The translations under genes were made by a program, and so were the position numbers. This document shows positions 24,701 through 52,253 of a stretch of 64,000 nt of DNA, one piece after another. Position 1 is the stretch's first letter. Every line of letters starts with the position of its first letter. This DNA is from Manduca sexta. Its lineage: Eukaryota > Arthropoda > Insecta > Lepidoptera > Sphingidae. The notes beneath the pieces were generated by a model. That model searched no databases. It had not been told where the DNA came from and worked only from the letters and a program-made list of their open reading frames with translations. Location of the stretch: the NCBI RefSeq assembly GCF_014839805.1, contig NC_051132.1, positions 868,001-932,000 on the forward strand, written 5' to 3'.

Positions 24701-26905
24701 TCTCTAGAAAATACGACTTAAGATAACTTTATTGTTCCTACCATTCATTTTTTCAAGTGTCGACGCTTCGGATTCACTTGTTTTCATATCGTGGGTTTTG
24801 GAATCTTCCATGATCCTCATATGGTCACCGCGAGCTCTTTCATCCATCTCCACTGTGGGCAGCTCGCGTACTTTACTTGTATTCTCCTGTAACGTCTTCT
24901 TTCTGGTCTCTTCTCTTCTCAACAAATTGTTAGCGAGCCGCAAGACTTCCTTGTTATCATTCATTTTATCTTTTATTTCAAAGAGAAGATCATTAATTCT
25001 TTTATTTCGCTCTAATTCTTGTTGTTTGAATTCTGCCAGCTTTTTGTTTCTTTCATCTTTATAGACGATATCAATGTCCCAGAACTCTTTGCGGCCAGTT
25101 TGTATATCTTCCTTTTCTTTTTCTGTAATCTGTTGCGTTTCAGATAGATCTTCTTCTTTGTCGGCTGGGACCTTTTGAGGCATAATTTCTTTAGATGGAT
25201 GTAAAACCTCTCGGGACTTTAACAGTACTTCATCAACTTCTTTGATAAAAGTCTTACATTCCTGATTCCTTAGTTCAAAACTAACCTTTCTTTGATTAAT
25301 TCTTTGTTCATGACATTTCAATTCACTATGAAGATTACTTATAGCTGTATTAATATCGTCTATTTGGGTATCTGTGACTGTTTCGTTATCTTCTATTGAC
25401 ACGTCAGGATCATCATTATTACCTGACATTTTAGTATCAACATTATGCTTTAACGTTCCCTTAGTATTCTTCCTCTCTCTTCGTAACATATCGCTTTCAT
25501 CTTTAATCTTTTGATATGCAATATTAGATTTTCTAGAATTTTCTAAAGCCTCATTAACATCGTTCAATAATTCGTTCATGCTATTTAACTTGTTAGTAAT
25601 ATCTTCACGAATAAGAGTGCTGAGGTTTTCAGCGCCTTCGACAATGTTACGAGCTAAACTTTTCATTTCTTTAAATTCTAATTCTTTGTTATCTTGATTT
25701 TCGGAATTACTCGTTTCAAATATATTTTCTAATGCGCTATGAAGAGTTTGTTCCATTTTTTCGTCAAAAACTTGCCTATTCGTCGGTTGAACAGTTTGAT
25801 CGTTTTCTGGAACTGATTTTTCTATGTCGACGTAAGATTGCAGTTCTCTTTCATCTTTAGCCTCTGTATTATTATTTTCATTGGCCATTGGTGCTTTAGT
25901 TAAAACAGAATTTATTTCACGTAGAGCCTTCTCAGTGTCCTTTAGTTTAGCTTTGAAAGTCTTGGGAAATACTTGCTCTACATCGACTATCTCTTCTTCC
26001 TCTATTGGTTCGTTGTCCTTTTTCTTGATTTCTCCGCTGAGATCGGGTCTTACTGGATTATCAGTCAATGAAATGTTCATAGCTTCATTAATGGAATACT
26101 TTTCTTTAATTTCGTCAAACGCAGAGCGACGAATTTGCCCCTTAATTAATTGTGTGGAAGATTCCTTTAGGACTGGATCTATTGGTATTTCAACATAATC
26201 GATTGAAGAATTCTTTGAAGTTTCTGGATCATCATATCTATCAGCCAATTTATGTAGCATATCCTTAGTCTCCTGGAATCTGGTTTCGTAGGATTTATCA
26301 GTGTATTGACTGACTACTTTTTCTATAGCTAAAAATTCTTCATCATTTTCAGACTCGTCTGAGTTAGGCTTGTTAAATTGTTCTTTTTCATAAACTTTAG
26401 CACTCTTTGTTTCATAATCGGTAACAGAATTCATCAAGGCAGTCATATTTTTGTAGTTAATTTTGTTGATTTCTTCAGATCCCTTAGCAGATTCAATCTC
26501 ATTTCTCATATCAGTGTATCCAACTATATTTATATCTTCCAAAGGAATAGCTACTTCCTTGTGATCTTCATTGTTTGTTAAGATTTGTATCTGTCTAGCT
26601 TTTTCAGCTATTACAGGACTATCTTTGATCATCTCTTTTATTTCTTTTGACGATAGTGGTCTATTATGTTCTTCGATCTTCGTGAATGGCTGCCCAGTCA
26701 TTACTTCATACTCGGACTTCACTTCACCAGGATGCGATGCAGCGATGTATGGTCTTTTGCCTTCTTTTAACGGCTTTAGTTCATTTTCAATAGCCTTCTC
26801 TATTACCTCTTTTGGAAGTTTGGCGTCTTGAAAGAACAATTTTAATTCTTCACGCTTTTTTTTAATGTATGTGGGATCACTTAAAGGGCAATTGGCTGTA
26901 TCCAT
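9758..26905 (-). CDS. DNAAF1: Dynein axonemal assembly factor 1 (LRRC50; Drosophila dtr homologue), 16 exons
   Basis: Coding exons in order of transcription: 26905-24742, 24506-24295, 18810-18531, 18267-18154, 17882-17705, 17485-17356, 16908-16692, 15981-15828, 15620-15529, 15387-14893, 14551-14367, 14031-13875, 12749-12633, 12007-11696, 11419-11223, 10501-9758. All junctions have GT/AG and matching phase; the sum is 5748 nt, 1915 residues. The start at 26905 is the first ATG after an in-frame TAA. Residues 1-721 (exon 1) are a Lys/Glu-rich coiled-coil-like extension. The family's conserved start [16 protein letters not shown] comes at about residue 764. SDS22-type leucine-rich repeats follow ([29 protein letters not shown]), then the LRR cap [10 protein letters not shown] and [17 protein letters not shown]. 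The rest is acidic and low in complexity. DNAAF1 is a cytoplasmic factor that preassembles axonemal dynein arms; in insects it should act in sperm flagella and chordotonal cilia. The extension could belong to another gene, but the splice phase fits. Confidence 0.9.
12053..12417. mobile_element. 365-bp near-perfect hairpin element flanked by TTAA
   Basis: Two arms of about 178 bp, differing by only three positions (two 1-nt indels, one substitution), surround a loop of about 9 nt near 12232. The element begins TTAAGGTGGTAGC and ends GCTACCACCTTAA, so both ends coincide with TTAA, the target site of piggyBac-type transposition. It has no coding capacity. It fills more than half of the DNAAF1 intron between exons 13 and 14, ending 45 nt from the exon-14 acceptor. 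The piggyBac link is inference from TTAA only. Confidence 0.9.
12985..13140 (-). repeat. R1 repeat, partial, minus
   Basis: Contains AGTCGACACAATTATGCCGG and the TGATCCCGGAACGCGACACACTT end of the family in reverse orientation. Degenerate; in the DNAAF1 intron between exons 12 and 13. Confidence 0.65.
13237..13872 (+). mobile_element. SINE family A copy with a duplicated 3' end, flanked by a 12-bp direct repeat
   Basis: The SINE head (TAGCCTAGTTGAG A box, GGTTCAAATCC B box) starts near 13250 and its tail is at 13535-13565. A second copy of the 3' end (ACAGTATATAATACAGGGCT) lies at 13836-13860 after about 270 bp of unrelated sequence. TTAAGGACCCGT occurs at 13237-13248 and again at 13861-13872, which looks like the target duplication around the whole block. 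The right repeat is 2 nt inside the intron next to the DNAAF1 exon-12 donor. Confidence 0.8.
16114..16690. other. DNAAF1 intron between exons 7 and 8, no gene seen
   Basis: A 118-codon minus-strand frame (16114-16470) is present, but it shows no known domain. It is AT-rich at its end and sits in intron sequence. Probably a dispersed repeat; not annotated as a gene. Confidence 0.5.
18945..19215 (-). repeat. Dispersed retroposon-like repeat, composite
   Basis: It shares CAGGGTCCCAAACTATCTCC and, in the other direction, GAGCTTCCGTTGCGTG with the element at 39225-39745. It lies just outside the large foldback element, in DNAAF1 intron 2. Confidence 0.6.
19230..20438. mobile_element. 1.2-kb foldback element with about 500-bp inverted arms
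   Basis: The left arm (19230-19732) and right arm (about 19924-20438) are near-identical reverse complements, differing mainly by scattered substitutions, a few small indels and a short divergent patch near the outer ends. The ends read TAGTCCATTGAAA. A spacer of about 190 bp carries its own smaller inverted repeat (AGCATTTTGACT at 19866 and its complement at 19897-19908). Each arm contains the same short frame (beginning [15 protein letters not shown]), which is expected from the duplication and is not evidence of a gene. A TA target duplication is possible. It lies in DNAAF1 intron 2. Confidence 0.88.
20797..20802 (-). promoter_or_regulatory. Polyadenylation signal of the nested secreted-protein gene
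   Basis: AATAAA on the minus strand, about 100 nt after the stop codon at 20903 and followed by a T/G-rich stretch. Confidence 0.65.
20903..21304 (-). CDS. Small secreted proline-rich repeat protein, nested in DNAAF1 intron 2
   Basis: 133 residues from ATG at 21304 to TAA at 20903. The N-terminus [20 protein letters not shown] is a clear signal peptide. The mature chain is extremely rich in Pro, Val, Ala and Leu. From about residue 60 it consists of a 16-residue unit ([16 protein letters not shown] and variants) repeated three and a half times; there is no Cys in the mature part. The ATG is 4 nt after an acceptor (TTTTTAG). A 31-nt non-coding exon (about 21733-21703) ends in a strong donor AAG/GTGAGT, and a TATA box lies upstream. 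Promoter, 5' exon, intron, CDS and poly(A) signal all fit inside one intron on the host gene's strand. I do not recognise the family. Such proteins in insects are usually extracellular matrix, cuticle, silk or secretion components, but that is only inference. Confidence 0.82.
   Translation of the reverse strand: MKSMVALFAVLAVAVAMPAPPPPGPLVQIVVNVNAQEHPAPPAPPAVIPVLPDMPIVPEPIVLPPAPVPEVIVPGPAVLPPPALPEVIVPAPAVLPPPSLPEVILPAPAVLPPPSLPEVILPEPVVMPDPVMP
20945..21125 (-). repeat. 48-bp tandem repeat coding the 16-residue units
   Basis: The DNA unit AGGAGGGAGCACTGC... recurs every 48 bp with high identity through the middle repeats, indicating recent expansion by unequal exchange or slippage. Length polymorphism between alleles would be expected. 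Confidence 0.8.
21703..21733 (-). other. Predicted 5' non-coding exon of the nested gene
   Basis: Its start is placed at an A in a TTCACAA context 31 nt downstream of the TATA start. Its end is fixed by the donor GAAG/GTGAGT. The intron 21702-21309 (394 nt) joins it to the coding exon. Confidence 0.6.
21755..21764 (-). promoter_or_regulatory. TATA box of the nested gene
   Basis: TATATAAATA on the minus strand, about 31 bp before the inferred start of transcription. A strong TATA box suits a tissue-specific, highly expressed secreted-protein gene. Confidence 0.7.
22308..22545 (+). repeat. R1 repeat, copy
   Basis: Nearly complete, from TGCTGGTGGTAGGATAT through CAGCCTGTGTATATCCGG and ACAGGCCGGCATAATTGTG to ACCATCAGGTGCA. 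This is one of the best-preserved copies. Confidence 0.8.
23110..23260 (-). mobile_element. SINE family B, copy 3
   Basis: GTCGCCATATCAGGCACAAAT and, toward the other end, the complement of the B box (GGATTTGAACC). Minus orientation, degenerate. Confidence 0.65.
24080..24280 (+). mobile_element. SINE family A, 5'-truncated, next to a DNAAF1 donor
   Basis: Starts within the body (AACGGTGAAGGAAAACATCG) and runs to the ATTATT tail. The tRNA head is missing. Its 3' end lies about 14 nt from the exon-2 splice donor at 24295. Confidence 0.8.
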
Positions 26906-26995
26906 ATCTTCTTTATATTATTTACGCCGCAATTCTTTAGTATCTGGGCAAATTATAAATTCCTGGTTGTCACTCAAAACATACCATGATTATCT

Positions 26996-31202: not shown

Positions 31203-34200
31203 ATGGACCGCTTCATAAGTATGTGGAAAGTGCGGGAGTTAGCGGATAAAGTGTAAGTATTTAACTAGTTGTATTTCATTTTTATGTTCATTTGTACCAT
31301 CTGGTTGGTTGATAGAGAGTTTATTCAGTGATTGAAGTATTACGAATGCTAAATAAGTACTCTCTCAGTGGTAGATGGCTGCTTAGCTCTCAACCAACGT
31401 GCATTTTTTCATCAAAGTTTCGTAGAAGCCATTCACGCAAGCCGGAATCGTTTATGCTTAAAATAATTTATTTAAACGGTTTACCAATTAATTATTGGTT
31501 AGATTAAATACCGGTTTGCCAATGATCAACTGTAAAGAACTAACAATATACTAAACGCTGCTATTTTCGTACAAACTTCCTGTTTAATGTCACTTTCATT
31601 TGATAGAGTACCAACCCATCATAAACATGTGACATTATGTTACAAGCATTCTACTCATACGTAAATGTATACATGAACTGCTACTGAATGTGCTGTACTA
31701 TGTAAAAACACTAAACCTATAGGAATCCTCTCAGATTATTGTAGCTTGTGTCAATATTATTATAATTCTGAACATTGACCATCTACTTAACTTCCAGGAG
31801 AATGTAATCATATTGACAAAATTAAGAAAAAGCTTTGTACTTGTCCCACTATTAAGTCTGTTATAATTGAGTGGAGGATGTCTCATTCACTTTATTCTAT
31901 TGAATTACAGGAAATGTTGTACTCTACAGAATTAACAAATACATTGATAACATATAGGCACATTTAGAATTATAATTGATAATAATAGAATCATAACTGT
32001 AACTTCTTTTTGTACTATATGCTGTACTTGCTTTATACCTTTGAACTAATTTTGAAAAGAACAACACTAGAGTTTCTTACCTGTTCTTCTCTGGTGGATA
32101 CTGCTGTAATTACTGAATCTAAATAATGTTTAACATTTTACAGACTAAAATAAATTTGTTTAATTACAAATTACATAATTAGCTTAGGTGGAAGTGTATG
32201 ACCAAAGTTTATCTTAGGGAGCCAGGAAATTTAAAATTTTGTTTCATATTAACAAATTACAAGCTAGTTGTGTTATTGCTCTTAATACATAACTATGTTA
32301 GCATATAGAAAGTACTTCTAGATGATTCTGATTAATATTAAGGAACTAAAAGCATTGTATATGTTGCCTTTATTTATTGCTATAAAATGACATAATTATA
32401 TTTCAGTTGTATTGTGTTTCCATTGCTATTGGTAAAATTATTTTGAATATAATACCTATGTTCTAAACTTTACCAATACATTAATTAATCTTGTAATTTA
32501 AAGGTGGGTTTTGATTATAATCTCATCAGGCAGGTAATCTGCTTGCATTGCTATGTTGTATGAAATAGGCTGATCTTGTTCATAATGTAAGTATTTTTAA
32601 AGAATAAATAAAATTATGCTATTGCAAATAAGTATGCATAGTAAGCAATAGTCAGCATAGTTCTAGGGGACTCCTTTTTTTAAGGGCAAACTGGGCCACC
32701 CTGAGTCTCAGGTTGGGTACTCAGTTTACAGAAGAAAACCTAAAAAGTGATGCATAATAATTGTATAAACAATAAATATGCACAACAAATGAAAGGTGTG
32801 TGAACTCAGCAGTTAAATTTGTGCCACATTTCAATACGCCTCGTTTACAAGAAGTCAAGGCCAATCATTAATTCACTTGTCATTGTGTGTGACAAAGAGA
32901 TGGCAATGACTGTTGTCAATTTTGGCTCATCTTTTTGTTTATAAAAAGAAACCCCAAATGTATTTATAGCAATTTTAATCTTATTTTATTTGCAATTTAT
33001 TGATTTTGGTTTTGGAAAGTTAAGAATTAGTTTTATCAAAGTTTAAAATTGTGGACAACAAACTATAGAGTGTTAAGTACGACTTATAAATACAGGTTTT
33101 GTTGGATCTTATCAGACTTGTTTTCTTAAGTGTCAGCATGTCTTGCAAATATTTAATGGTATGTTATCATTATCTACTATTTTTTGCATGCAACTCTGCC
33201 TGCAAAATAGTCTTTCCCTTTAATAAACATAATCAAATATAATAAATACAATCTGATACTGTACAAGTATAATTAGATATTAGTTTAGGAATTATAGAAT
33301 CTGTTAAAACTTTTATTACAAATCTGTTTTATAGATTACCCCCTATAAAGTAGGAAATTTAAATTATTTTTATACCAGTGTAGATAAATGGGAGATAATA
33401 TAATGCTCAGTCATCATTAAAATGTAGATAACTCAATATTGTTGTACATATAATTTATAATTTATAACATAATCACAAGTATTTAATCCATACTTCCATT
33501 ATTATTATATAAGTACTAACCACACCTGTGTAGGTCTAAATATATAAAATATTAGTCTCATCTCTAAGTTTTGAAATCTTATTGACATTGCAGTAGGTAT
33601 TTGGATTTCGAAGCATATGTATAATGCAGCGCCTTTGTCTCTATTATCATGAAAAAAATAAAAGACCAAGTAATAAAATAAAAGTCTAAAGATGTCTATC
33701 AAATACCTGAATGTCTAACTGAAATAAATCTAGACATTATATGTTTGAATCTTAAGCGTAATTGTGCTAATTATCAACCCAAGCCTCGCACATAGAAACT
33801 ACACTAAAAACTAAATTACTTTCCCTTCCTACCCCCATAATGTACAGTTGTGATAATAAATTAATGATCCGCGACAGCTATGTACAGAGTGGATTGTTAT
33901 GTTCCACTGATAGTGTTATCGGCGTGTCATTGATTAGCGCGCGATAAGCCGTTATGTCACAACCGACTCGGATTGAACCCTGGACAGGTGTAATTGTTTA
34001 GGACATATCTTATTTTCAGTATTTCATTTTGTGTTGGACAATAAATGTTCGACACCAATAATTATTATGTGGATTTTCTTTAAAGGGTACAGGGTGGTCA
34101 CCTTAACGCATTTTATGGTAAACGGAGTAGCGTGTAGATAGTGTGTTAACTGACGATATTTTATCCCTCTCAGTCGACGCAATTATGCCGGCCTGTTTTT

Positions 34201-37200
34201 AGACCAATTATAGCATTTATATAACTAGGTGCTGCATCATTATTCGACCGCATGAAGAAACGTCCTCAAAAACAACGTATTACCACTGCAATGTTGTGGA
34301 TGATCTTCCAAATTGTTTACTATCAGACAAATTAAAACACGAAGTTGCGCCTCAAACACTCTTCCGTATGTTGAGTTACGGAGGTCGTATCAATTCGCCA
34401 ATTTAAAATATGTACAATATTTCACAATGGCAACCTTGCGGTAACCTTTCTCTCGTACGCCCGCGTTAATTGCGTCATTTAGATGTGTGTTTATGCATCG
34501 AAACTTGTTGTTATGTGGTATTGTGCAAGATAGTTACTTCTCGAGGGTTAACAAGATTGTTCCGCCCTCATGTCTGTGCCCGTTTTACTAGGGACCGTTA
34601 GCTCGCGTTACGACACCGAGCAGTAAACTTCAACTGTGGCCCTACATTAATATCTATTAAGTATGTCTGATTAGTGTCCATTAAATATTGTAATTCGTTA
34701 GGAATACAAGGGAGTGATTTGGAGCTCTGAAAATCTCAATTACCATACGCGACTCGTCAAAGGTAGTCGTCAAAGTTCACTTGGGTATTGTTTTTTTTTT
34801 ATTGCTTTGAATGACGAGACGAGCTTGCCGTTCGTCTGATGGTAAGCGCTACCACCACCCATAAACAGTAGAAGACCATCCAACGCCTTAAATTACAAAG
34901 TATTGTTTGGTATTCCACTGCACTCGCCATCCTGAAACGTGAGATGTTAAGTCTCATTAGGTCCAGTAGTTACACTGGCTATAATATCCTTCAAACCGGA
35001 ACACAACAGTGACTACACACTGCTGCTTGGTGGCAGAAATGACATTGCGGTGGTACCTACCCAGACGGACTCTCACATATGAGAGACCTACCACCAGTAA
35101 CTGTTAGACTCAGTAGTAATACTTTAGTCGAGCTGGTGCTTTCACGCTGTACACAAACATCTTCACCACTTTTATTTACTTTCCGTTTAAAATCATGAAT
35201 AAGGTATTTTCCAAAATATAAAAAGGTACAAATCATTTAAATTTTATCGTGTTGATATACTAGTATCAGAAGGTCCTGCCAGGTGGCTTGTGATTTCACA
35301 TCGAGTTTACAACGCGAGCACGTTGCCGCCCTTTATTTCCGACGCCCTTTCTTGGCAATCGGCGGTTTCCTTTCCGTAACGAGATTGCTGATGACGTCCT
35401 TGTGACGTCAGAGATGTTTGTTTACTGTAGTGGTTTTACCTTTATATGTTATATATCTACCTAAATACCGAGACGGACAAGACGCTTAGTGTTGATTGTG
35501 AATTCTACCAACTCGCATCAGGCCAATATGATGGATAAAATCCATATACCACATAGAGCAGAAGAAATGCCCAACAGTGACCGAAAACCAACTATTATGA
35601 TTAACTATCTCTTGCTCGCGGTTTCGGCGGAGAGTAATTCTGTCTCTGTCAAAATTTTAATGAACCTTCACCTTGGATGTCTCCATTGTCAAAACTGTAT
35701 CAAAATCCGTTCAGTAGTTTTTGAGTTAATCGTGTTCAGACGGACAGACGCGGGGGACTTTGTCTTATATGTAGTGAAGGATAATTATTCTGTTTTGAGC
35801 CTTATCCTACAGTAGCATGTAACAAAACGACAGAAAAATGAAACGTTTCTGTTTAACAGTTTAGTATTAACATAAAACACAAACACATTTTTTCCTCATG
35901 AGACTGACCACAAAATTACTTGAACACATTCAAAATTTCTACACACATTAACTTAAATCGAATATTTTTTTCCTCATCTAAAGTATATCTTTGAAATTTA
36001 TTTTAGTGAAGAAAAAACGATAGTTGACAGACACAAATGTTTAAATGCTGTTTGAAGTTTCGAATTTATTCAGTTAATTTTGCGCCTGACTGTATTAGTC
36101 GACATTTGAACATCAATAAATTAAATTGCAATTATATTAAAGAATCTAAAATAGTAACAAATATTCATAATATTTCCAGCACTAGAACAATGAGGCAAGA
36201 TTAGTGGAAAAATTGATATTCATGATATTGAATTAAATAATCGCGTTGGATGATATGAGCCGCGCCTTGTCGCGAGCAACCCCGCCTTCATACCCATCGC
36301 TACAACTTTGTAGGCCAACTTGAACGTGCATTTGAAAAGACAAAATTGATTAATCGTATGGCATGAAGCAGTGAGGCTTGGCATGTACCTGGCAGCACTA
36401 ACAACCATCTTTCGAATGGCTGCTTTTTCTTTGGAAAACGTGTAGTCAAAAGAATAGATCTCATATATGATGGGAACAGGCATGATGGATAAGGGCAAAT
36501 TTGTCGCCATATCGGGCACAAATTTCAGACATGAAGCAGAAAACCCAATGTCAATTTGCTTGACCCGGGATTCGAACCCGAGACTTCATAGCAATGAACA
36601 ATGCAAATAAAATCTTCAACACAATAATCAAATATGTCTGTTACAGCACAAACGTGGTGATGAACTACACCGAGGTGGAAGGCAAGGTGCGCGAGGCGAC
36701 GTCGGACGAGGCGTGGGGCCCCACCGGCCAGCAGATGCAGGAGCTCGCGCTGGCGACCTTCACCTACGAACACTTCCCTGAGGTGATGTCCATGCTGTGG
36801 CGACGCATGCTGCACGACAACAGGAGCCACTGGCGCAGGACTTACAAGGTACGCGGATGGATTTAGGCTGAATAAAACAGTAATAAAAACACTCCCATTA
36901 AAGTCCTTGATATACATCTGCATTTTACTTTTTACTAATAATATTAATGCAAAACTTTGTGAATATGTTTGGATGAAATTTGGCAAATGGAGAGACAATG
37001 CCTCGGATTAATACACAGTAATTTTTTAATCCCAGTAATTTGCTTCTGTGAAAAATAATTTAATTTTTAATTAGATGGCGGTAGCGTTGTTTGCAGATTG
37101 ATTATGGATTACTATAGTTTTTTTAGGGACATAGCCGTAAAAGCTTTCCAACGCGAACAAAGCCGTGCGAAGCCCGAGTTACTGAAAATGAACTAAAACG

Positions 37201-40200
37201 TAACTATTAGTAAATATTTAGTGCGTAATACAAGAATAAAATACAAATTGGAAAAGTTCAAAACATTCCGTTCCGTTTCCCTGGTAAACTCCCCTCTATA
37301 AGTTCCCCGGTTGGTGTCCCCAGTGCCTGCTGCTGCTGAGCTACCTGGTGCGCAACGGGTCGGAGCGCGTCGTGACGTCGGCCAGGGAGCACATCTACGA
37401 CCTGCGCTCGCTCGAGAACTACACCTACGTCGACGACATCGGCAAGGATCAGGTAATATAACCGCTGACCCACGAGTGTCATCCAAACGGTAACCACTGT
37501 GAGGGTGTAATGGGAATAGTACAAAATTCATTTAACACAAACAAATACATACAATCAAATGATCGGATGAAGAACTTTGCTGGTGGTGGGACCCTTGTAT
37601 TCACCTGGATAGGGACCACTTTATACAAGATGTGACCGCATGCATTCTAGGATCAACCTGTGTATATCCAGTTCAAACATAATTGTACTAAAACTTTCAA
37701 CGAAATGTGAAAAAACAATCAGCAAGCCAGCATAATATTTCCGATGGCCTTCATCATCCCTTGTTTTTCTCTCTTCACTTAACGCTAGTTGCAATGAAAA
37801 GTGTGTTATTAATTTATAATGCTGTACTGCAGGGTATAAACGTGCGGCACAAGGTTCGCGAGCTGATCGACTTCATCCAGGACGACGAGAAGCTCCGCGA
37901 GGAACGGAAGAAGGCAAAGAAGAACAAGGACAAGTATATTGGTATGTACAATATAGATACTTAAATTAAGTTTACACTAGCAAGGTCTCGCAAAAATATG
38001 TCACAAGTCTCGCAAGTTTTAAAACTTGCAGTAATCTGCTCCTATTGACTGCTTTCTTATTAAACTAAACCCGTACTACAACTAAAATCACTCACATTAA
38101 TGTCCGTTACCGACAGAGACTAGTCTATGGAACTTAGGGTTAGTGTAGTTTTCCATAAAAAAAATCATTCAGAGAATCCTCTTACACTTTCAATATACAC
38201 TTTCAAATTTTGCATTCTATGCATCACTTATTTGTTGATCGTTATCATTTTGTTGCGTAAGTCCACTTCGTGTTTTTGCTCCTTGCAAATTTATGATAGA
38301 TATTTCCCCATGACAGTAAATACGTGTATGTTCCAGGCATGTCGTCGGAGGCGGCGGTGCTGGGCGTGGGCGGGATGGGCGGCATGGGCGGGCGCGGCGG
38401 AGGGGCGGGCGGCTGGGGCGAGTACAGCGACCGCGCCTCCAGCTGGGGTAATTACATCATTTATACCACTTATCAAATTGTTAGACTTGTAATTCTGCAA
38501 ATTTGAAAACTTGTTATAAGCATCTCTGGCGGTAAAACTAAAGGTGCTAACTGTTCTCATCCCTCAATTGTGAGTTAAGCTGGATAAAGTAAAGACATTA
38601 AAGTATTAGGAAAATCTTCGAACATTTTTAAAGCACTCCTTATGTAAAGCTTGAATAGGACTTCTTTTTTATTTGGCACTGTACCTCGTTCATCATTTGA
38701 ATTGATTTCGAAAAGGGTGACACTAGAGTTTTTTTGTTGTTCTTCTCTAATGGAAATTGCTTTCCGAACTGGTGGTAGAGAAAAAATTTATAAAATTCAA
38801 ACAATATTTGACATTTTGTACATATAGTCCGCCCCGTGACCATAAAGACATCAGCAGAAAATTATAATATAAAATCTGCAAAATAGGTTTATTTCATTTT
38901 TTTAGATAAAAAATATATATTTTATTTCAAGACAACAATTGTGAAAAATACAATATTGATAATTAATATTATGTATGTTATTCTAGACGAGCCGAAGGAG
39001 CGTAATGAGGAAGAAGAGTACGACAGGGAAGACTCGGACGGAGACTACGCGCCGAGGAAACACAACAAGTGCGTACACACTAGCATACATGCTACAGTTT
39101 GTAATTGGATTATATTTGTAACCTTAATAATAATACGAAAGTGAAATTTTGTGAATATGGATATTTTTTGTTACTGAGAAGTAAGCTACGCAACGAATGA
39201 ACGGGTATAAATGAAATTTATTATATATCTATACTATTATATAAAGCTGAAGAGTTTGTTTGTTTGTTTGTTTGAACGCGCTAATCTCAGGAACTACCGG
39301 TCCAAACTGAAAAATTCTTTTTGCGTTGGATAGCCCTTTGTTCGTGGAGTACTATAGGCTATATATCATCACGCTATACCCAATAGGAGCGGAGCAGTAA
39401 TGAAACATGTTGCAAAAACGGGGGAAAATTATTAGTTTTGAGAGCTTCCGTTGCGTGCGCTGCGTAAACGGTTAAAGTTATGCAACAATGATGTATGACG
39501 GGATTGTTCCTCTTAAAAAGTTCTAAAAATATATATTATAAAACTAAGTCCCCCGCTGCATCTGTCTGCCTGAATGTGTTAAACTCAAAAACTACTTAAC
39601 GTATTAAGATGAAATTTGGTATGGAAACAGTTTGAGACCCTGGGAAGAACAAAGGCTCCCAGGAAACTACTACTTTTATAACGGAAAACTTTAGCCTGAA
39701 AAACTTTATAACGCGGGCGGAGCCGCGGGCAAAAGCTAGTATAATATATTTTAATTCGCCCGTATAGCGAACATTGTACAAAAGGTGTTAAAACCCGTCA
39801 TAGAGGCCCACGTATGTCGCGTTCGGGAGCAGCCTGTGTATGTCCGGTACCAACAGGCCGACATATTTGTGTCGACTGCCGAAGGACAATAATTTCGCGT
39901 TAGTCGACATTCTATTGGACCCCACTCTACTTACAATCAAGTGCAGTCGAGTCGCTTCACCGTGCACACATAAATAATACTATTTTAATCCCATTGATTA
40001 TGTGTTCATCTAAGATTTTTATTCTAAGAAATACGTTGCGTCTATCTTATTATCTATAAAATATAATAACATATTACGTAATGACATTGCAGGGACAGAG
40101 ACGCGTCGGTGTACCGCGACGCGGAGGTAGTGGCCAGCAGCCCCCCGCGGTCCATCACGACAGCGCCGACCGCCGGCGCCGGGGGGCTGGGGTCCCTGTC

Positions 40201-43200
40201 GGGCGCCGGCCCGCTCACCGTCACCGTGCGCAGCCCCGCCAGGAACAAACCCGCCACGCCGACACGCAGGATTGATTTGGGTATGAGACTGACATCAATT
40301 TATTGTGATATGAGTTGTAAATGTTTAGGTATTTAATACCTAATTGGGTAATTTTTAACATTCCTAAACACTCATAAAATCAGAAGGATCATTGGTGCGT
40401 TGTTTATCGTTATGTATAATAAATAGTGGTCCTGTATTACTGGGAAGAAAGTTCTTAGCAGAAGAAGTTGCACTCGAGAGGATGTAGGCTTTAATTCACC
40501 ATGCTGATTAAGCATACACATGCTCAATTAGTGATTATGTAATTATGATTATTATAAGTTAATACAACAAGATTAAAATATTCACAGGTGCAGCAGCGAC
40601 GTACGGCAAGACATCGCAGCCGGCACAGCAAATACAACCGACGAGCCAGCTGCCCGTCGATAACAACAACTCGCAGGACTTGTTGGACGAGTTATTCAAG
40701 ACGTGTCCCGCGCCCGGCGCCTCCCCCGCCGCCACCCCCGCCTCCGCCGCCGCCAACAACCACTCCGCTTCACTCGTGCTTGAAGATGACTTCGATCCTA
40801 GGTGACGATATTTTCTATAAAAAGAGTCACGTAAATTGCCCCATGGAATATTTGAATAATCTATGTAAATACGTAAAAAAAAGAAACAGTCACATGAATC
40901 AAGAATCGTGGCGTTTTTTGGTTGTCGGTTAAAGGTTTGGATTAACGTCAGATGAATTGTATCTGTGTCCGAGAAATTTTAAAGGATGTGTTATAAAGAA
41001 GTGGGCTTTTATATCGCTAATAATTTCACCAACAATATAAAACAAAAGGTTAAATACCTCACATCAGATTACAGACTAGTTATATCTCTAAAACAAGGCA
41101 CTGCAACTGGTTAAAAAGAGCAATCATACGGGTTTAATCGAGTATCCCTCAGCATGTTTGTTGATATAACATTATTGCGTGTATGTGGTTGCAGAGCGGA
41201 GGAGCAGCGCGCGGGCGCGGGCTCGGAGTTCGGCGACTTCTCGAAGGCGTGGAGCGCGGCGCCGCCCGACGCGCCCGACGGGTTCGCCGACTTCGCCTCC
41301 GCCTTCGGCGCCGCCGCGCCCGCGCCCGCCGCACCACCCGCACCCGCGCCCGCACCCGCACCCGCCGCACTCGCTGCGCCCGCGCCGCCTTGTAAGTATT
41401 ACTTAAAAATAAACCATTCAAAACAAATATTAAGAAATGTAAACACAGTGTACCTTAGTAGTACCCTAAAACTAAATTCTATGTTTAGCCAAACATTAAC
41501 AATATGTAAAGAAACATCGTAATAAGTTTTAAAAAAATATATATTAAAATTTATCATAAACTGTGAAATACATGAATTTATTACTCAAAAAGTCTGTTTT
41601 ATGAATAACATTTTAGATAAAATATATAATATTTCACTACATACAAAATAAACCATATAAAACTGTTACGTTTTCCAGCCCCACAAGCTTCGAACCTGGA
41701 CCTCCTGAGTTCGCTAGCGGCGCCGCCCCTCACACCGCTTGGGTCCCTGGATCTTTCCCCCATGGACAACCTGACTGGACAACTGGCTGCCACCACGCTA
41801 CAACCAACATTACCACCACAAGGTAACCTATTCATTATCATTTTTGTTTTTTTAGTATCTGTTAAGGATATGATGGAAAGAGAAAATTTGTTAATTTTTT
41901 TTTATAAACAACTAGCTTTTGCTCGCGGCTTCGCCCGCGTGAAGGTGTTTTCCAGGATAAAATTCCACTGTTTGATAAAAGTCTTGCTACATATTTTCCC
42001 GGTACTTATAGGTTCAAACTAATTTTATCCCCAATCTATAATTTCAGTTCAATCAGTCGAAAATCTAAGAACATTTATACAAACTTTCATCCCCTATTTT
42101 ATCCCCTTAAGGGTAGAATTTATCAAAATCCTTTCTTAGGGGATGCCTACGTCATAGTAGCTTTATGCATGTAAAGTCTTAGCCCGATCCGTCCAATGGT
42201 TTGGGCTGTTCCTTGATATATCACTGTCAGTCACCTTTGAGTTATATATTATATTAACAACTGAAGTTAGCTAAAATTGAGTTTCTCGAAGCTGACCACT
42301 ATTTATGTACTATGTATTTTGAGACTATGCAATTTTGTCGCGTTCGCGATTCACTTTCACTTTTGTTGAGTTTCAGAACGCGATATTAGATCCTCCAACG
42401 CGCACGCGAATTTGAACTTTATGCAGCGGTAATAAATTACAAATTGACTCTCCATTTTATTTAGAAAACGTTTGTATGGGAAATAGAAAAATGCTGTTTT
42501 GAGGATTTTCCCGGCAATTATTCGAATTTTTCTCAACTTTTAAATCTTCCCTAGACCTCCACGAATAATTCAAGACCAAGATAAGATAAATCCGTTCAGC
42601 CGTTCTCGAGTTTTAGCGAGACTAACGAACAGCAATTCATTTTTATATATATATAAACAATATTACCATGTATATAAGATCAGTACATTCATTTTATTAA
42701 TTTTTACTGTTTACCAGCAGTATGCCGATACTTATGATTACCTTTGAAGGACACCATTAAATGATAATTATTGCATTATTAAAATTAAATGTTTTATCCA
42801 ACAGTGACAACCACATTTCACAACCAGTATATAAAATATATATTTATAATTATTGACGGAAATGGGTTTGACTATAATCTTCCTGAAAAAGGAAAATTAA
42901 TAACCCGCTCTGGGGAATCCATTTTTACTTTTTCATTTTAAAGTTAATATTGGCAGTACAGGAAATTTAATGTATATTTTACCACGACAGGCTATAAAAA
43001 TATAATTCTATTGAAATAAAATTATTCGCGGATTTTATCGCCGTTGCTTATATTTTAATTTTCCCCCGACGTTTCGAAGACTTTGCCGCCTTCATGGTCA
43101 CGTGGCAGACTCAGTATAGCAGTATATTTCTAATTAATGTAATTTTGTAATTAATAATCCATCATATCTTTAACACATACTCAAGTTATTTTGTTTATAA

Positions 43201-46200
43201 AATTTTTGTCTTATACTTTATTTTAAAAGCTATTTTGCGAAAAAATATTTTAACCAAGATACACTATTCGAAAACAATTGGTACCGGGAAAAATGTGTTA
43301 TTAATCGATCAAATTAATAGTTTGATGTCTGATTAGTCGATTTTAATATCGACTGTGTTGTGTGTTGACTGGTTCATAATTTTCTTAATAATTTATTACA
43401 AAATATAAAACATACCAATTCGACAAACGCTAGATTGATTATCCTGTGTTTCTTTCGCACCGCCACAATTTTCGCGAAAATATAAACGCGTACAGCCACA
43501 CAAAGCTATCCGGCATTACCACACAAAATGTTTTTTTAGTAGTGTGTTTTTTTATTTTGGAAAATGTGAGTGTTTGCATGTGCGTATATCCATGTGAGTT
43601 GGTCGAGTCAAGACAGTTTTGGGCACATTCAGGATTCTTTTATTTTCAGACGGGCAAGCCGACATGACGTCACAACAACGCGACCTACTGCGCGCTTTGA
43701 AATATTTCGCAACCACCCTACAGTCCATAGAGAAGATTCAGTCGGAGAGTGACGTAAATAACATACTCAAATGTCTTCAGAAAGCCAAAGATCATCTCCC
43801 CGGCCCGCTGACTGTGCAAAAACTGTCAAAATTTGATGATTACGTCATGAACGCGGAAATCATCGAAGCGTATTCTCGACTGCTGACAGTTATCATTAGA
43901 GACCTGTTGCCACAGTGGCCAGTGTTCAAAGACAAAATTGTCAGCCTGTTTACCATCGAGGACTGTTTTGCTGTTAGCTACGAAACAGTTAGCATTTTGT
44001 GCGGATACCTGAAGAATGAGACAAATCAATCCGTCCAAGAGGCTTTGTCGTATTTCTTACTGAAATATATTAAAAGTGACGCAGTAATAGCAGCCGCCAT
44101 CGACTGCAGTAGCAACTTGGATATAGAAGAATACGACAAATATCAGCTGCAACACGAATGGGAGAATTACGTGCAGATGCTGGTCACACTGCCCGAGAGG
44201 GTTGCCAATAAATTGCAGACCGACACCCCCAAAGATTTCTCTAGAAGTTTCTATTCGACTTTTTTGATTTTTCACATCGTAAGATGCCTTGATTTTATGT
44301 CTGAATGTAATTTAAATTTGGGTTCACAGTATGACATGTACTACTTATCCTACTTCCTCTCGAAGGTTATCACGAATTACAATATAAATGGCAACTGCGA
44401 AGCTGTGTATGACTTCACCGACGTCCTGATATCTTGGGTGAGCGATACGAATGTAGAAAAAACTAGATTTGTTAAAAGGAAACTAATTCAGACCTTGATG
44501 AAACACATGAGCCGGCCGGCCATAGAGAACTTTGCCTATGTCTTACTAGCGAAGTGTCCTATAGACTACAAAAAAGATCAACAGATTATCCTACATATAC
44601 TGGGCGATAATTTTGACACGAACAATGATTGGAAAGAGATTCTCATACATAAAATACCGTTTTATTTCATGCCTAGAGACTATAAAAATACGTCGATACC
44701 AGAAAATTTCTTATACTATTTATCGACAACGAGAAATAGTGTCGATGTTTTCACAGATCTATTTGATAGATTGAGCCGAGCATGGGCGGACGTGAAACTT
44801 AACAACACCTCTAATGTCGACCAACACATGTATCTCTCGGAGTTGTTAGTGCTGTCCGTAAAATATCGTACGCTAATGACGTTACAGAAGAAAATCGGAT
44901 GGAATTTTATGGAGAGTAAGTCGATATTATTTAAAGGAATGGGAAAGCATTTGGACGTCTGGTCGCAAGAGTACAGATGTGTGGGCATGGCGACTATAGA
45001 GGTCATTCTGAAAACGCTCGCTGATATCGATAGGAGCGATAGAGAAGCGTCCCAAAGCCTTAACTTTAAATATGCAGAAATGGGTGAAAGTTGCGTTGAA
45101 ATACATAGAGTTTTAAAGGAATTGACAAACAGATGTCTCATAGACAAGAAAAGACAAATACCGCACGGTACCACAAAGATATTGGGTGTGAAGCGTGCGT
45201 TAGATTCCATAGCGATGAAAATTATCGACAGAGAAGACATGCCTTCTACCACCAATACAATAGTTACTTGCGCAGTCAAAGGACCTGAACAGACTAAAGA
45301 AATAGTCAAAGCTATTATATCTGTCAAATTGGATGCCCTAGAAAAAGAGGGGAAACAGGTAGTGGAAGACCTAGACTCGGACGACGATCTAGAACCCTAC
45401 GACATGTCCAACGATGTGTCAGCGAATGCTAAATTCAGACCTACATTCCTACGGGAACTGTTGGATAATTTAGTCGAAGCGGAAAACATTGATACGTTCG
45501 AGGCGTGTCTCTCTGTTGCAGAGGAGATGGTCACAAAACAAATGAAGGCAGAGAGCCCAAGACTCGCCACGCAATTACTGGACATTTTCATACATTTAGA
45601 ACCGAAATTCCACGTAGACGACTTCGAGAGGATCAAATTTAATACATGCGTGGCGATAGTGTACGCTAAACCCGCACCGTGTGCCGAACATTTGTGCAAG
45701 GAGTTTCATACCGACGTGGGAAGGTACTCCATAGCCACGAAAATATATATGCTGGACATACTATCGGCAGCTGTCAACAAAATATCGAACATCATGCCCG
45801 AAGAAGTTGTCAGCAAAGCGACAAGCGAAATAATCAGTACGCAGAATGATGAAGAAAAATTACCGCCAGAAGAAATAATTCGACGGCGGTTGATAAATAA
45901 AACTAAATATTATCATTCAAAAAGGCCGCACCCCTTCGCTAAGGCGAAAATTAACGAATTCTCAAAGGTCGCTGATAGCTTTTTTTACCCCCTAATAGGC
46001 GGGTTGGGGTACAAACAGCTCACGCTAAGCCATCACAATATGAAGCAAGATATCGACAACATACTCCTGTTTAAATACTTAGCTGTAGTCGGTAACGTTA
46101 TTTTAGCCTCGAAAAATTGTCCGAAATGTTCGAAATACTGTTGGGAGATACTGCAAATGCTGCTCTATCTTCGGTACACACCAGACCCAAAGCTTAAATC

Positions 46201-49200
46201 TTGCGTCATATCCCTACTCGCGTCGGTAATTTTGGCATTACCACCGTACATACTGAAAACGGAATTTTTCGACACGCTAATGGAGTTTCGGTCGTGGTTA
46301 GTCGATTGTTTATCGAATTTCGATTTGACGATGCAGACGAGCGGTGCTAAGTCAGAGTTAGCTGTATTCGCGGGACAAGTTTTAGGACTGATTGAGAAGT
46401 CGTTGTCTGATTTTGACTGAGATTGGGTTAAATAGCGTGATATGGGTTCGCAGTGTTGACACGGGGTATCTGTATGAAGTATTCGTTCGGTGTCGTATTT
46501 GATGATATCGATACTCAAAAAGTATCGATCAAATATCAATATCACTTAAAAAAAAAAATTTTGTTGCCTTAGTAGGCAAACGAGCGAGCAGGCCGCCTGA
46601 TGGTCAGCAGTATCCGCCGCCATGGACTAAAGCAATGCAAAAAATATTATTACCCCATATTAACGTTTAGTATCGATACCTTGCTACTCGAAACCCTAAC
46701 ATACCGAGTATCATTCAAACTCTAGGTGTGACGTCACATCTACTACGATGTAGCATTTACACGCTACATAAGCTATTTTGTTTAAAGTTCCTTTTCTTTT
46801 TCACAAACTGTGATATTAAGTGGCTAATATCGAGTACGGAATTCGAAGGCAATTGTGTGCCAACCCATGTATCTATTCGCATGGTGGTCTCAATCTTAGA
46901 AGGCTGAGGCAACTTGAATGAACTGGCTGTAATTGAAAATAGAAGTCTCCGTCTCGTTGGATTATCAATAGATAATAATTATGCTGAGAATACTGGATAA
47001 AAAAGATGTTCGCAGGACCCAAAAAAAATACAAATTTTAAATGTAGTATACTCCACTATAACTCACTGTGACGCCCGTAGAAATTGCATTTCTTCACTGT
47101 ATTAGCAATTAAGATATCAAAATATCGATTTTAACAATCTGTGATTGATCTTTGCTTTTAATAACTGCCAAATTTGACATAGCACCTATAGTATTTACCC
47201 TTATCAATGTGGCAATACATCACAAGTTAGGCTTTATGTGGTCGTATTCCAACGTGATAAAGTTGTATTTAGCACAAAATTTTAATACAATATGTAGTTA
47301 TAATTTTGACTGATTGGAAGAGGAGTTTTCTAAATTCCAATGTGAACGTATTGATCTAGGCTTTGGGACAATTATCAATTGGGTGTAGAAACTAACACCT
47401 AAACCAGGGTAATAATAAAACCCCGTTTTAAGAAAAACAAGTGACTTGCTAGGATTAGAATATGAATAATAGCCCCCGACATCTCATGATAAAGAAATAA
47501 GTTGCATGAGTCTATCCCTCTTGGTAAACAAGCATGAGCTGGCGTGTGAGAGAATAAGATGAGGTTGTATTTGCGTTAACTGCAGGCTCAAGGTCAATAC
47601 AAAAAAAAACAAAATTAAACTAACCTGCTTAAAGCGGTGCGTGGTTTTTTCAACCTTATATGAAGGGCTATAATGTTAAGTTTCCGTTATATTGTAATGC
47701 TCTCTAACGTTTCTCTGCGCTGATCCTTGGATACCTCTTGTCTTGTCTTATGCTGGTAGTAGGATATTTGTATCCGCTCAGATCGCGAGCACCGCACACA
47801 AGGTAAAATCTACCATAGTTGCCCACGAAATGAATCGCGTTTTGGGGACCCTTGTGTAGATTTAGTTTCAAACATGCCGGCATAATTATGTCAACTGGTG
47901 ATGGGTAATCTCTTCAGTCGAGACTATCTAGCTCCACTCTCCTTACCATTAGGTGCATTGGAGTCACTTTGATGAGGTCATATAAAGACTCAAGACTTTC
48001 TGGCTCTTGCTCCACTTATAATCAGATGTAGTAGGCTTATCTACCGTGCCCGCATGAAAACACCTAATGGAGGGGGCCACACTGTGCATACAATGACCAG
48101 GTGCTGTGCTAGGTTATATTATAAAAATGGATTTATCACAGCTTTGCGCTCTATAGGTACTAACTACACGTAGCTTTAACCTCGAATATATATAAATAAA
48201 GAACTATTATTTCTTTGTGAATTAGGATATTTTGGTGTAATTGAGTATAGTCTATGAACACATTTTATAATAAAAAAAAACCTTTACTTTGTTGGGAAAG
48301 TATGAAAACAAGCGTTCCCAGGTTCAAACTAAAAATAAATACTCTCTAAGCTTTTAATAACCGAGAAAATAGAGAAAAGGCAATACCATTAGTTATAATG
48401 GTATACAATCTCACTGCATTGGCCTTAAAGGAATGACGAATTCTACAAACTATACTTCTACGTAACAAACACTAGCTGTGCTAAGATTGTGCATTTAAGA
48501 GATATCTGTGCTATTTTTGTGTATATTTGACATTGTAAGTAGATGTAAAGGGACATCACTGGAGTACTTGTCGACTCTGGAAACTAAATAAGTATGTTTT
48601 TTTTTTTTGTTATATGACAATCAAGAAAAAATCTAAAGTGTTCTGTTTATTATTTTTCGTGTAAGTTTATCAGATATTTAGTAAGATTTTTGAATATATA
48701 TGCGTCCCGTGATGTCCCTTAAGTGATTAGCTATAAAACTGTGTATGTATAAATATGTATTCACCCACCGTCTCAAATAAAGCGTATTCAGCAATTTGTG
48801 TTTTATTGTGTTTATCTGTGGATTAAAAAGCGAAAAATAATCATTGCTGTGTGATTACAGCTTTCCTAAACTTGAGGGTTTTTTATATCTAGCGTGATAA
48901 ATATAGATATATAGTGAAAACCGCTTATAACGACATTGTAGGTGACACAATAATCGTTATAAAAGATGCGTTGTTATAACCAGATTTTACTGTAATTAAA
49001 ATTATATTTTAGAGTCGGAATCAACACGCATTTATTTCAGCATGTTATCATAAAGTATTAGATTGATACTTTGTTCACAATAAAATACAATAATGTATGG
49101 GTTATAACAACAAAATTATTAAATTAATCCACAGGAATCCAACCGACACCGGTAAGCCTCCTGCAACCACTGACGACCAACAACCAGCAACCACAGCCAG

Positions 49201-49466
49201 CGAACTCAAAACCGTCTGCAAAGCTCGGCGCCACTTGGGCCGACACAACGGGAGCGATCAACATCGACGTGGACAACTTGCTCGCGCCGCGATCGCCCAA
49301 GAATGCGCCCGCGCCCACCATCAACCAGCTCAAGTCCAGCCCCGCCAGCCCGGCCCACGCTCCCGCGCACATGTTCGGGTACTCTGGACCTCTAAACAAC
49401 GCGCCGCCCCTCAACATAAACAACAACGTCATGCGACCCCAATATAACCACAACTTCCTTCAATGA
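31203..49466 (+). CDS. lqfR: EpsinR (CLINT1/liquid facets-related), 11-exon short isoform
   Basis: Exons 31203-31252, 36647-36848, 37324-37452, 37833-37941, 38337-38447, 38987-39068, 40093-40280, 40588-40801, 41195-41391, 41679-41822 and terminal exon 49135-49466 give 585 residues, every junction in phase. An in-frame TAA lies four codons before the ATG. Residues 1 to about 155 form an ENTH domain (MDRFISMWKVRELADKV, NYTEVEGKVREATSDEAWGP, LLLLSYLVRNGSERVVTSAR), which binds phosphoinositides. The rest is disordered, Gly/Ala/Pro-rich tail. EFGDF (373-377) and GFADF (391-395) resemble the motifs that bind gamma-ear domains of AP-1 and GGA, and LDLLSSL resembles a clathrin box. The C-terminus contains WADTTGAINIDVDNLL. 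EpsinR is a clathrin adaptor at the trans-Golgi and endosomes. Intron 1 is 5.4 kb. The Tel2 exon lies inside the last intron. Confidence 0.93.
34095..34205 (-). repeat. R1 repeat fragment
   Basis: CAGTCGACGCAATTATGCCG with flanking family sequence, reverse orientation, strongly diverged. Confidence 0.55.
34791..35100 (-). mobile_element. Poly(A)-tailed retroposon (SINE or short LINE type)
   Basis: On the minus strand it starts TTACTGGTGGTAGGTCTCTC and ends GTCTCGTCATTCAAAGCAATA followed by a run of A. No coding frame. A related tail fragment occurs at 46559-46630. Confidence 0.7.
35625..35800 (+). repeat. Dispersed repeat, degenerate
   Basis: Begins CTCTTGCTCGCGGTTTCGG and includes AAAATCCGTTCAGTAGTTTT and ACGGACAGACGCGGGGGACT, phrases typical of insect retroposon ends and related to 41910-42660. 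Confidence 0.55.
36470..36595 (-). mobile_element. SINE family B, copy 2, adjacent to an ENTH exon
   Basis: GTCGCCATATCGGGCACAAAT and the complement of a perfect B box (GGATTCGAACC at 36561-36571). It ends about 50 nt before the acceptor of EpsinR exon 2. Confidence 0.75.
37575..37700 (+). repeat. R1 repeat, partial
   Basis: TGCTGGTGGTGGGACC start, then TATACAAGATG and CAACCTGTGTATATCCAG. In EpsinR intron 3. Confidence 0.65.
38825..38900 (+). repeat. Dispersed repeat shared with 61693-61785
   Basis: TAGTCCGCCCCGTGACCATAA and AATCTGCAAAATAGGTTTA are matched at 61693-61785 (CCGTCACCATGAAGAC, AACTGCAAAATAGTTTAAT). Class unknown. Confidence 0.5.
39225..39745 (+). mobile_element. Long dispersed retroposon-like repeat
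   Basis: Starts TATACTATTATATAAAGCTG, contains a (TTTG)n tract at 39253-39273, and ends with a GC-rich GCGGGCGGAGCCGCGGGCAA then AAGCTAGTATAAT. Partial copies occur at 2847-3040 and 18945-19215. In EpsinR intron 6. Confidence 0.7.
39755..39975 (+). repeat. R1 repeat, copy
   Basis: Contains GTCGCGTTCGGGAGCAGCCT, ACCAACAGGCCGACAT, GTGTCGACTGCC and the end ATCAAGTGCAGTCGAGTCGC. Lacks the TGCTGGTGG start; directly follows the previous element. Confidence 0.7.
41910..42660 (+). repeat. Dispersed retroposon-like repeats in EpsinR intron 10
   Basis: Begins AGCTTTTGCTCGCGGCTTCG and includes CTTTCATCCCCTATTTTATC; a second segment at 42480-42640 has TAAATCCGTTCAGCCGTTCT. Both are degenerate remnants. 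They lie in the intron before the Tel2 exon. Confidence 0.6.
43015..43115 (-). repeat. Dispersed repeat containing AAAGTCTTCGAAACGTCGGG
   Basis: The minus strand reads ACCATGAAGGCGGCAAAGTC then TTCGAAACGTCGGGGG, related to 61693-61785. Common lepidopteran repeat phrase; class uncertain. Confidence 0.55.
43650..46420 (+). CDS. Tel2: Tel2/TELO2 terminal exon, in frame with EpsinR exons 1-10
   Basis: One exon of 2771 nt after acceptor TTTTCAG, opening in phase 1 exactly as needed by EpsinR exon 10 (ends 41822). Joined to exons 1-10 it gives a 1398-residue EpsinR-Tel2 fusion; the Tel2 part has its own Met at 43664 (fusion residue 481) and is 918 residues, versus about 840 in vertebrate TELO2. 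Landmarks are MTSQQRDLLRALKYF, the acidic DLDSDDDLEPYDMS at about Tel2 residue 567, the conserved Telomere_reg-2 region from RPTFLRELLDN (about 591-705), VADSFFYPLI, and FRSWLVDCL near the end. Tel2 works with Tti1/Tti2 and Hsp90-R2TP to stabilise PIKK kinases (mTOR, ATM, ATR, SMG1). Drosophila lqfR is known to make the same translational fusion. A separate Tel2-only promoter in the intron cannot be excluded. Confidence 0.92.
46497..46536 (+). other. Hairpin about 75 nt after the Tel2 stop codon
   Basis: The arms TATTTGAT..ATCGATACT and AGTATCGATCAAATA pair over about 16 bp with a 3-nt bulge and a 5-nt loop. Would lie in the 3' UTR of the fusion mRNA. Confidence 0.55.
46559..46630 (-). repeat. 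Retroposon tail fragment
   Basis: TGCCTTAGTAGGCAAACGAG and CCGCCTGATGGTCAGCAG resemble the tail of the element at 34791-35100. Confidence 0.5.
47748..47970 (+). repeat. R1 repeat, copy
   Basis: TGCTGGTAGTAGGATATTTG start, then CACACAAGG, AACATGCCGGCATAATTATG and ACCATTAGGTGCATTGGAGT. Confidence 0.7.
48776..48781 (+). promoter_or_regulatory. Candidate poly(A) signal for the Tel2 isoform
   Basis: AATAAA followed within 20-40 nt by a G/T-rich run (TTTGTGTTTTATTGTG). It lies before the EpsinR terminal exon, so its use would end the fusion transcript and exclude that exon. The implied 3' UTR is 2.3 kb. Confidence 0.45.
48910..48994. mobile_element. 85-bp inverted-repeat element, pogo-like ends
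   Basis: The left end TATAGTGAAAACCGCTTATA and the complement of the right end TACAGTAAAATCTGGTTATA are imperfect 25-bp inverted repeats, flanked by TA. A single related end lies at 50385-50454. Family placement by end sequence only. Confidence 0.5.
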
Positions 49467-50454: not shown

Positions 50455-52253
50455 TAAAGACATGTCAAATTATCGATATGTAAAAGTCGATATTTCGTCT
50501 AATGTCATAGCAATATCGAAACAACTAATTGATATGTGTGTAGTGGTAATAGGAATATTTGCTAATCGGTCTTTTTGTAACTCGACTATTATACAGACGT
50601 ATAAATGTTTTTATTACGTCAAGTCAAAGAATAAAAGTGTCGATGATTCGTCCAGTATTTTGGATGTTTAACATAACCATGACTTGTTCAAAACTAATAA
50701 AAATATTCCACCACTACACACTAAAATTAATTCTCACACTACATTTATAAATATGGTCTGCCTGCGGAAGTTTTATACTATTTGATATTAGATACATTTC
50801 AGGGTACCGTAGGACGCGGCGGAACCGCACGGAACCCACCGCACTAATGCATGGTGCATATCATATCGCATGATATTATCATTATTATAAAACCACATTG
50901 TTATGCCAACAATTTACCAATGGAATATAAAGGAGGTTTACAAAAAGAACTTCGATAAAATCCACACACTTGAGTTATAAAGAATGTTGTGGAATTATTA
51001 ATTTATCGAAAAACTGTTTTTTAATTATTTTTTTTCTTATGCAAATGCATCCGCTTTTCGGTAATTAAATAATTCGTTACTTTTATAACTCGCGCTGAGG
51101 TTAAGTCAAAGATGACTAAACCTCAATGTATGCTCACACATTCCTTTATCAAAATCGAAACGTTTAGAAAAAAAAATAGTTAATTTATAAAAAAAATAAC
51201 GTAGTTCTTGGGCGAATTATTGTTGATAAAAAAAGTGCTTCTGGGAAATTAAAAACGTTTAAAAAATCTTCAAAATGTCCGTGTTGAGACAATAAATGTT
51301 AACTGCAATAAACGATGTATACCAAATTTTCTTTTACTGGTGAAAGGGTGCTTGGTATTTTGTACCCGCATATTCAAATGTAAACAAACGAGTAGACGTT
51401 CATAGGTGAGCCGGTGTACAGGAAAGGCAACCACAATGACGTCACGTCCTGTTGGTTGACAATATATGACAACACTACATTTAATTTGGTGCAGTGTACT
51501 TTGTCGTGATTGGAAAAAGCAACAAAACCCTATTGTTGGTTTTTAAGTTGCAATTATAAATTAGAAATGTTTCTTTTTGTACAAACTTCGTTTTTCGATT
51601 CGCTAATTCTAATTGAGATTTTTACAAGCATATAAATAGTATGAGTGAATTTATTTCGTTACTCTTAGCTGAATGTAGTGTGAATGTATTTTATACATGG
51701 CAAATGGCAATATTAGAAAGAGATTTAATATAAAAGTAATACAGTGAAATAATTTTACAATATTAATTACCGATAAAATGTATAAAATATCGACATCGAT
51801 GGTCACAGTACTCTGGAGTTTCGTGTATTTTTAGGGACATAATTTTATGTTCAAAATTTTTTGGTATCACTTACGAACGGAATTATGCTAACTCAATTTA
51901 TAGATAAAATATTTCGTTGTCGATTCTTATGAATATAGTAATGATTATTCTCTTTGCGATTCGTTTTTTATTACCTGACTTACAATATTAACAAAAAGTA
52001 AATATATGAAACTTTTTTTTAAACCTTAAAATATGTAACAACGATACAACATTATTAATTATGTAGGACAGGTAATGAAAAATGAATTATAACAAATTAC
52101 TTGCGGCAATCAGTTTTTCTACTTACGCCATGTATGCTTAAATGGAATTGAATATCAAGGCATACATAAATGAATTTGCCGCGAGTAAAAACAAGCACTG
52201 ATATAATACAACGGACTTATAACGGATTTGCAATTAATATTAACAATTAAGCC

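Follow-up and report, generated by a model that had tools for sequence, protein, structure and literature searches.

The window, by which we mean the whole 64,000-nucleotide stretch of Manduca sexta DNA analysed here, carries an EpsinR-Tel2 gene on its forward strand, with ten shared coding exons followed by one last exon for Tel2 and another for the EpsinR tail (Table 1). GT..AG borders are found at every intron joined in this gene. When the exon map was recomputed, exon 10 was found to end in phase 1, i.e., with one base of an open codon, exact to the base at which an earlier note on this DNA had placed it. The spliced reading frames confirmed the note's two phase 1 acceptors as well: the Tel2 exon (2771 bases) fills the open codon and then runs for 922 codons and a stop, and the tail exon (332 bases) fills it and then runs for 109 codons and a stop. 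The spliced translations have the lengths given in that note, 1398 residues for the ENTH-Tel2 form and 585 residues for the EpsinR form. In M. sexta, exon 10 would be spliced to either of the two last exons, which are presumably mutually exclusive, judging from the stop codon that each of them contains and from the situation in Drosophila.

Table 1. Coordinates in the window of the EpsinR-Tel2 gene and its candidate signals
Feature	Position	Strand	Remarks
EpsinR shared coding exons (n = 10)	31203..41822	+	475 residues plus one base
Shared exons 1-5	31203-31252, 36647-36848, 37324-37452, 37833-37941, 38337-38447	+	
Shared exons 6-10	38987-39068, 40093-40280, 40588-40801, 41195-41391, 41679-41822	+	
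Intron-tail element GGGCACATTCAGG	43621..43633	+	17-29 bases before acceptor 43650
Tel2 last exon	43650..46420	+	phase 1; stop 46418-46420
Candidate poly(A) signal, Tel2 form	48776..48781	+	G/T-rich stretch after; rank 1 of 235
EpsinR tail, alternative last exon	49135..49466	+	phase 1
Candidate poly(A) signal, EpsinR form	50630..50635	+	rank 33 of 235

Several other features were seen in the window. On the reverse strand, an open frame of 498 residues that the window edge truncates (5-1498; Pfam Baculo_F, 5.8e-34) is probably an envelope-like gene of an endogenous retroelement. A leucine-rich-repeat exon on the same strand (18463-18891; LRR_4, 2.3e-13) resembles, we assume, an axonemal dynein assembly factor, and a 737-residue open frame at 24707-26917 (reverse strand, no Pfam match) may or may not belong with it. 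The reverse-strand frame at 20906-21592 is proline-rich and repetitive, with a signal-peptide-like stretch and no Pfam match. Within intron 10, positions 41905-42660 hold what we take to be a dispersed moth repeat, and positions 43469-43490, TTTTCGCGAAAATATAAACGCG, form a palindrome with a TATA-like box which, by eye, could be an internal promoter for Tel2. The ATG at 43578 opens a short frame (43578-43667) that ends in a TGA overlapping the ATG of the Tel2 exon (ATGA), probably by chance. The tRNA and Rfam scans of the window found nothing.

The ENTH domain lies at the start of the shared part (residues 24-148; Pfam PF01417, 1.9e-44), and the product of the Tel2 exon matches Telomere_reg-2 (Pfam PF10193, 5.8e-23) and one solved chain, 7f4u_A, the TEL2 homolog TELO2 (8.7e-27). 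Annotated lepidopteran ENTH-Tel2 proteins, e.g., Bombyx mori P0003 and Galleria mellonella P0011, have the same domain order as the window. In a protein search with 57 matches, the Tel2 exon was 48-59% identical to its lepidopteran relatives for most matches (48-58% for the named fused ones), the closest match, with the window's own entry put aside, being 59%. The ENTH region is 94-99% identical in the lepidopteran fused proteins among the matches listed, with the exceptions of P0059 (81%) and P0063 (74%). Given the identity of the Tel2 exon and the fused proteins of the same domain order in other Lepidoptera, we consider the EpsinR-Tel2 gene to be more than a chance arrangement.

The earlier note had recognized here the fusion known from Drosophila lqfR, and this holds. 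In the open-licence PMC literature, we found the ENTH-Tel2 fusion treated in Drosophila work alone (PMC3460857; PMC3197181). Drosophila lqfR is the same gene, with LqfRa (1415 residues) ending in the Tel2 exon and LqfRb (649 residues) having another tail, both forms being backed by RT-PCR, Northern, and Western analysis, i.e., by RNA and protein evidence (PMC3460857; PMC3197181). As in the window, shared ENTH/linker exons are followed by one large Tel2 alternative last exon and, further 3', by the EpsinR tail exon, so that the exon order is the same. The fly gene has five shared exons in 7.7 kb and the M. sexta gene ten in 18 kb, whereas the proportions of shared residues are similar (492 of 1415 versus 475 of 1398). 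It is very likely that the gene in the window is the lepidopteran orthologue of Drosophila lqfR/tel2. Vertebrate CLINT1 (EpsinR) and TELO2, as well as molluscan Tel2, belong to the same two protein families as the two halves of the window's gene; CLINT1 and TELO2 are, however, separate genes, as EpsinR and Tel2 are in yeast, worm (nematodes), and vertebrates according to the same papers (PMC3460857; PMC3197181). It is also reported that a fly null mutant is rescued to wild type by Tel2 alone, indicating that the fusion itself is unneeded in flies, and that fly viability does not require EpsinR (PMC3460857). The fusion is not new, since lqfR has been described and since the 2012 paper states, with data not shown, that the EpsinR and Tel2 genes are likely fused in other insects (PMC3460857).

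What can be added to that statement is the breadth of the fusion. Three protein searches, with 57 matches, the best 120 of 270 matches, and 108 matches (from 7988 candidates sharing most words), respectively, yielded 250 proteins among the matches listed, including the window's own translation (P0001 and P0002 are the window's own). Tel2 is present in 250/250 of them, and at least 158 also have ENTH, always in front of Tel2 (158/158). Ten neopteran orders are represented among the fused proteins, which extend to cockroaches, stick insects, a locust, and a louse: at least 64 are from Diptera, 31 from Lepidoptera, 27 from Hymenoptera, 23 from Coleoptera, 4 from Hemiptera, 3 from Blattodea, 2 each from Thysanoptera and Phasmatodea, and 1 each from Psocodea and Orthoptera (the order was looked up for seven species and assigned by species name for the rest, and some species are counted more than once). 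The remaining 92 proteins without ENTH are the window's own two, 76 without a species name, nine named insect models, and five named non-insects; ENTH was absent from the Tel2 proteins of four named molluscs (Pinctada, Patella, Ylistrum, and Mizuhopecten) and a lizard (Phrynocephalus) among the matches. The nine insect models, which may be incomplete or may stand for genuine separate transcripts, are from six Lepidoptera (Cydia fagiglandana, Diatraea saccharalis, Pararge aegeria, Chrysodeixis includens, Helicoverpa armigera, and Ostrinia nubilalis) and from Cryptotermes secundus, Anabrus simplex, and Microctonus aethiopoides. Since the Cydia pomonella model is fused whereas that of C. fagiglandana is not, we take at least some of the unfused models as partial. 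Dragonfly, mayfly, springtail, or crustacean proteins were not recognized among the matches listed from these general searches, which were not aimed at these groups. The earlier note had dated the architecture to before the split of flies and Lepidoptera and had proposed a search of other insect orders; with ENTH-Tel2 proteins in ten neopteran orders, its dating is right but too modest, as the fusion long predates that split and, judging from the protein models, is at least as old as Neoptera.

The exon order can also be followed outside M. sexta. The EpsinR tail is present in nine of the 154 protein models searched, and in all nine it stands after Tel2. These models, from eight species, are five lepidopteran (two from one species), three beetle, and one Anopheles (mosquito), and the window's tail is related to those in the beetle and mosquito models. 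The points at which they leave Tel2 vary, and they are probably wrong joins of both last exons in which the exon order is still visible. When frames running through the acceptor are compared by eye with fused proteins of the same group, the junction agrees with phase 1 in Lepidoptera, Hymenoptera, thrips, and gall midges, the unnamed genomic frames having been placed in insect groups by similarity. Of the suggestion that selection has kept phase and order, the order stands in 9/9 models and the phase in four groups by eye, and selection may be the cause.

Structure, frame, domains, and relatives are best read as a single gene having two alternative last exons, and we hold with considerable confidence that an alternative-last-exon orthologue of lqfR/tel2 explains the locus. 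Transcription from a promoter upstream of 31203 would yield a pre-mRNA in which the ENTH domain and a linker are encoded by the ten shared exons. If exon 10 is joined to 43650 and the RNA ends after Tel2, probably at 48776, the product would be the 1398-residue EpsinR-Tel2, acting as Tel2 in the cell; read-through of 48776 with joining of exon 10 to 49135 would yield the 585-residue EpsinR. Which of the two is made would depend on how strong the Tel2 acceptor and poly(A) site are relative to the distal acceptor. A home-made score, i.e., G/T richness 20-55 bases after AATAAA, was applied to the 235 AATAAA sites on both strands of the window, and the signal before the EpsinR exon to which the earlier note had pointed is indeed an AATAAA and comes out on top. 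The AATAAA at 48195 ranks 15. The score does not support 50136, put forward there as a 3' end site (rank 180, below 50630).

Against the fusion, one may argue from the TATA-like stretch and the ATG before Tel2 in the window and from the nine named ENTH-less insect models, and suppose that a Tel2 gene in its own right lies inside the EpsinR intron, with a promoter in intron 10, a start at ATG 43664 (918 residues), and a phase match that is a relic or chance. The ATG lies five codons into the Tel2 exon, unfused RefSeq-style models exist in some insects, and the database entry P0002, the window's own protein, has 918 residues from this very ATG, although it may be a mechanical reading-frame call. 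Set beside a stand-alone TELO2 gene, which would have its own promoter and start codon and share no frame with another gene, the Tel2 exon gives a mixed picture, having an ATG and a frame shared with exon 10. We consider a nested gene very improbable: fused models occur in ten orders, and at least 31 lepidopteran protein models have both ENTH and Tel2. The ATG of the window is not conserved either; among 30 lepidopteran fused models, the stretch from the projected junction to the LPGP motif lacks a Met in 13 and has at least one in 17 (one further model has no LPGP motif, and the projection is rough, including linker sequence in P0044 and P0057 at least). In the fly, a Northern with an exon 6 probe detected only an RNA of ~5 kb and no separate Tel2 RNA (PMC3197181; PMC3460857).

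The same points for a Tel2 start inside intron 10 could be used to argue that the fusion mRNA is made and is supplemented, in some tissues, by free Tel2 from another, internal promoter; free Tel2 would work, considering that Tel2 alone is enough in flies (PMC3460857). We found no positive evidence for such an addition, the free RNA is absent on the fly Northern (PMC3197181), and we think it rather unlikely. As to the tail-bearing models, nine from eight species have the form expected if a third mRNA ran from near the Tel2 end to the EpsinR tail so as to encode ENTH, Tel2, and the tail in a single protein, and two Spodoptera exigua models leave Tel2 at an identical place. However, exit points vary by species, as prediction errors would, and no strong donor was seen near the Tel2 stop (a motif scan of 45900-46900 gave 46724 only, past the stop), making this third mRNA highly doubtful.

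Besides the two last exons, the tail of the intron before the Tel2 acceptor attracted our attention. GGGCACATTCAGG has a single match in the window, allowing up to two mismatches, and the last intron codons in the Tel2 frame read VLGTFRILLFS. We aligned 32 sequences, i.e., the window, 30 unfused frames of <1000 residues from the search with the Tel2 exon (including P0002; P0038, with 1060 residues, is outside by this cut), and the fused model P0055; most of the frames lack a species name, and it is their similarity that marks them as lepidopteran. In the 22 sequences covering the intron tail, G is kept in 19/22, T in 21/22, F in 21/22, and R in 20/22. The mean entropy of GTFR is 0.58 bits (13 sequences <70% identical in Tel2), compared with a minimum of 1.61 bits among the 23 four-codon windows that could be scored with a start within the first 28 codons of the exon; across the whole Tel2 exon, 170 of 889 four-codon windows have an entropy equal to or below that of GTFR. 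The conservation of the intron tail is therefore on the level of a well-preserved protein segment, next to an exon start that is poorly preserved. An Arg codon equally far from the acceptor is present in 20/22 Lepidoptera-like, 7/7 Hymenoptera-like, and 3/3 thrips-like frames and in 0/2 gall-midge-like ones, a sampling that sees only frames with an upstream start and could miss non-conserving species. The Hymenoptera-like frames (7) carry [MI][PR]PR and the thrips-like ones (3) NKVRF. We did not find this conservation reported in the open-licence PMC literature.

Coding explanations of the intron tail are not preferred. As the N-terminus of free Tel2 (VLGTFRxFLF), it would be read in a frame that, in the window, is interrupted by TGA at 43595-43597 and lacks an ATG upstream of 43664; the upstream Met varies between sequences, and the frame starts at an M just before GTFR in 3/22. 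A second in-frame acceptor, ACAG at 43613-43616, would add 11 residues and is possible in the window, but 4/18 aligned frames have Asn/Phe instead of CAG, and the AG at 43631-43632 is out of frame, with a stop directly after the Tel2 ATG. In P0049, the intron-tail peptide matches these same bases after a shift of one; this observation, resting on back-translation, points to the bases rather than the peptide. The Arg codon is AGG in the window, with its A at -19 from the Tel2 acceptor, a position compatible with a branch site; YTNAY has no match from -50 to -9 before this acceptor, nor before those at 36647, 37324, and 49135. On these sequence comparisons, the intron tail may be a candidate branch site or switch element. 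It is a tentative idea, which we would not press, that the last exon of Tel2 acts as a controlled switch, in which GGGCACATTCAGG, as an unusual conserved branch-site or factor-binding element, sets the amounts of Tel2 versus EpsinR. If true, the dose of a PIKK chaperone would, in a large part of Neoptera, be coupled to a gene of membrane traffic through the GGGCACATTCAGG switch.

A membrane-traffic adaptor and a kinase chaperone, whose functions are unrelated, appear to have been kept in one gene through most of neopteran evolution. Automatic annotation names EpsinR-Tel2 genes after either half and can miscount both. The fusion appears to have been retained although flies can do with the Tel2 half alone, and why it was never undone is a question that can be tested in any insect transcriptome.
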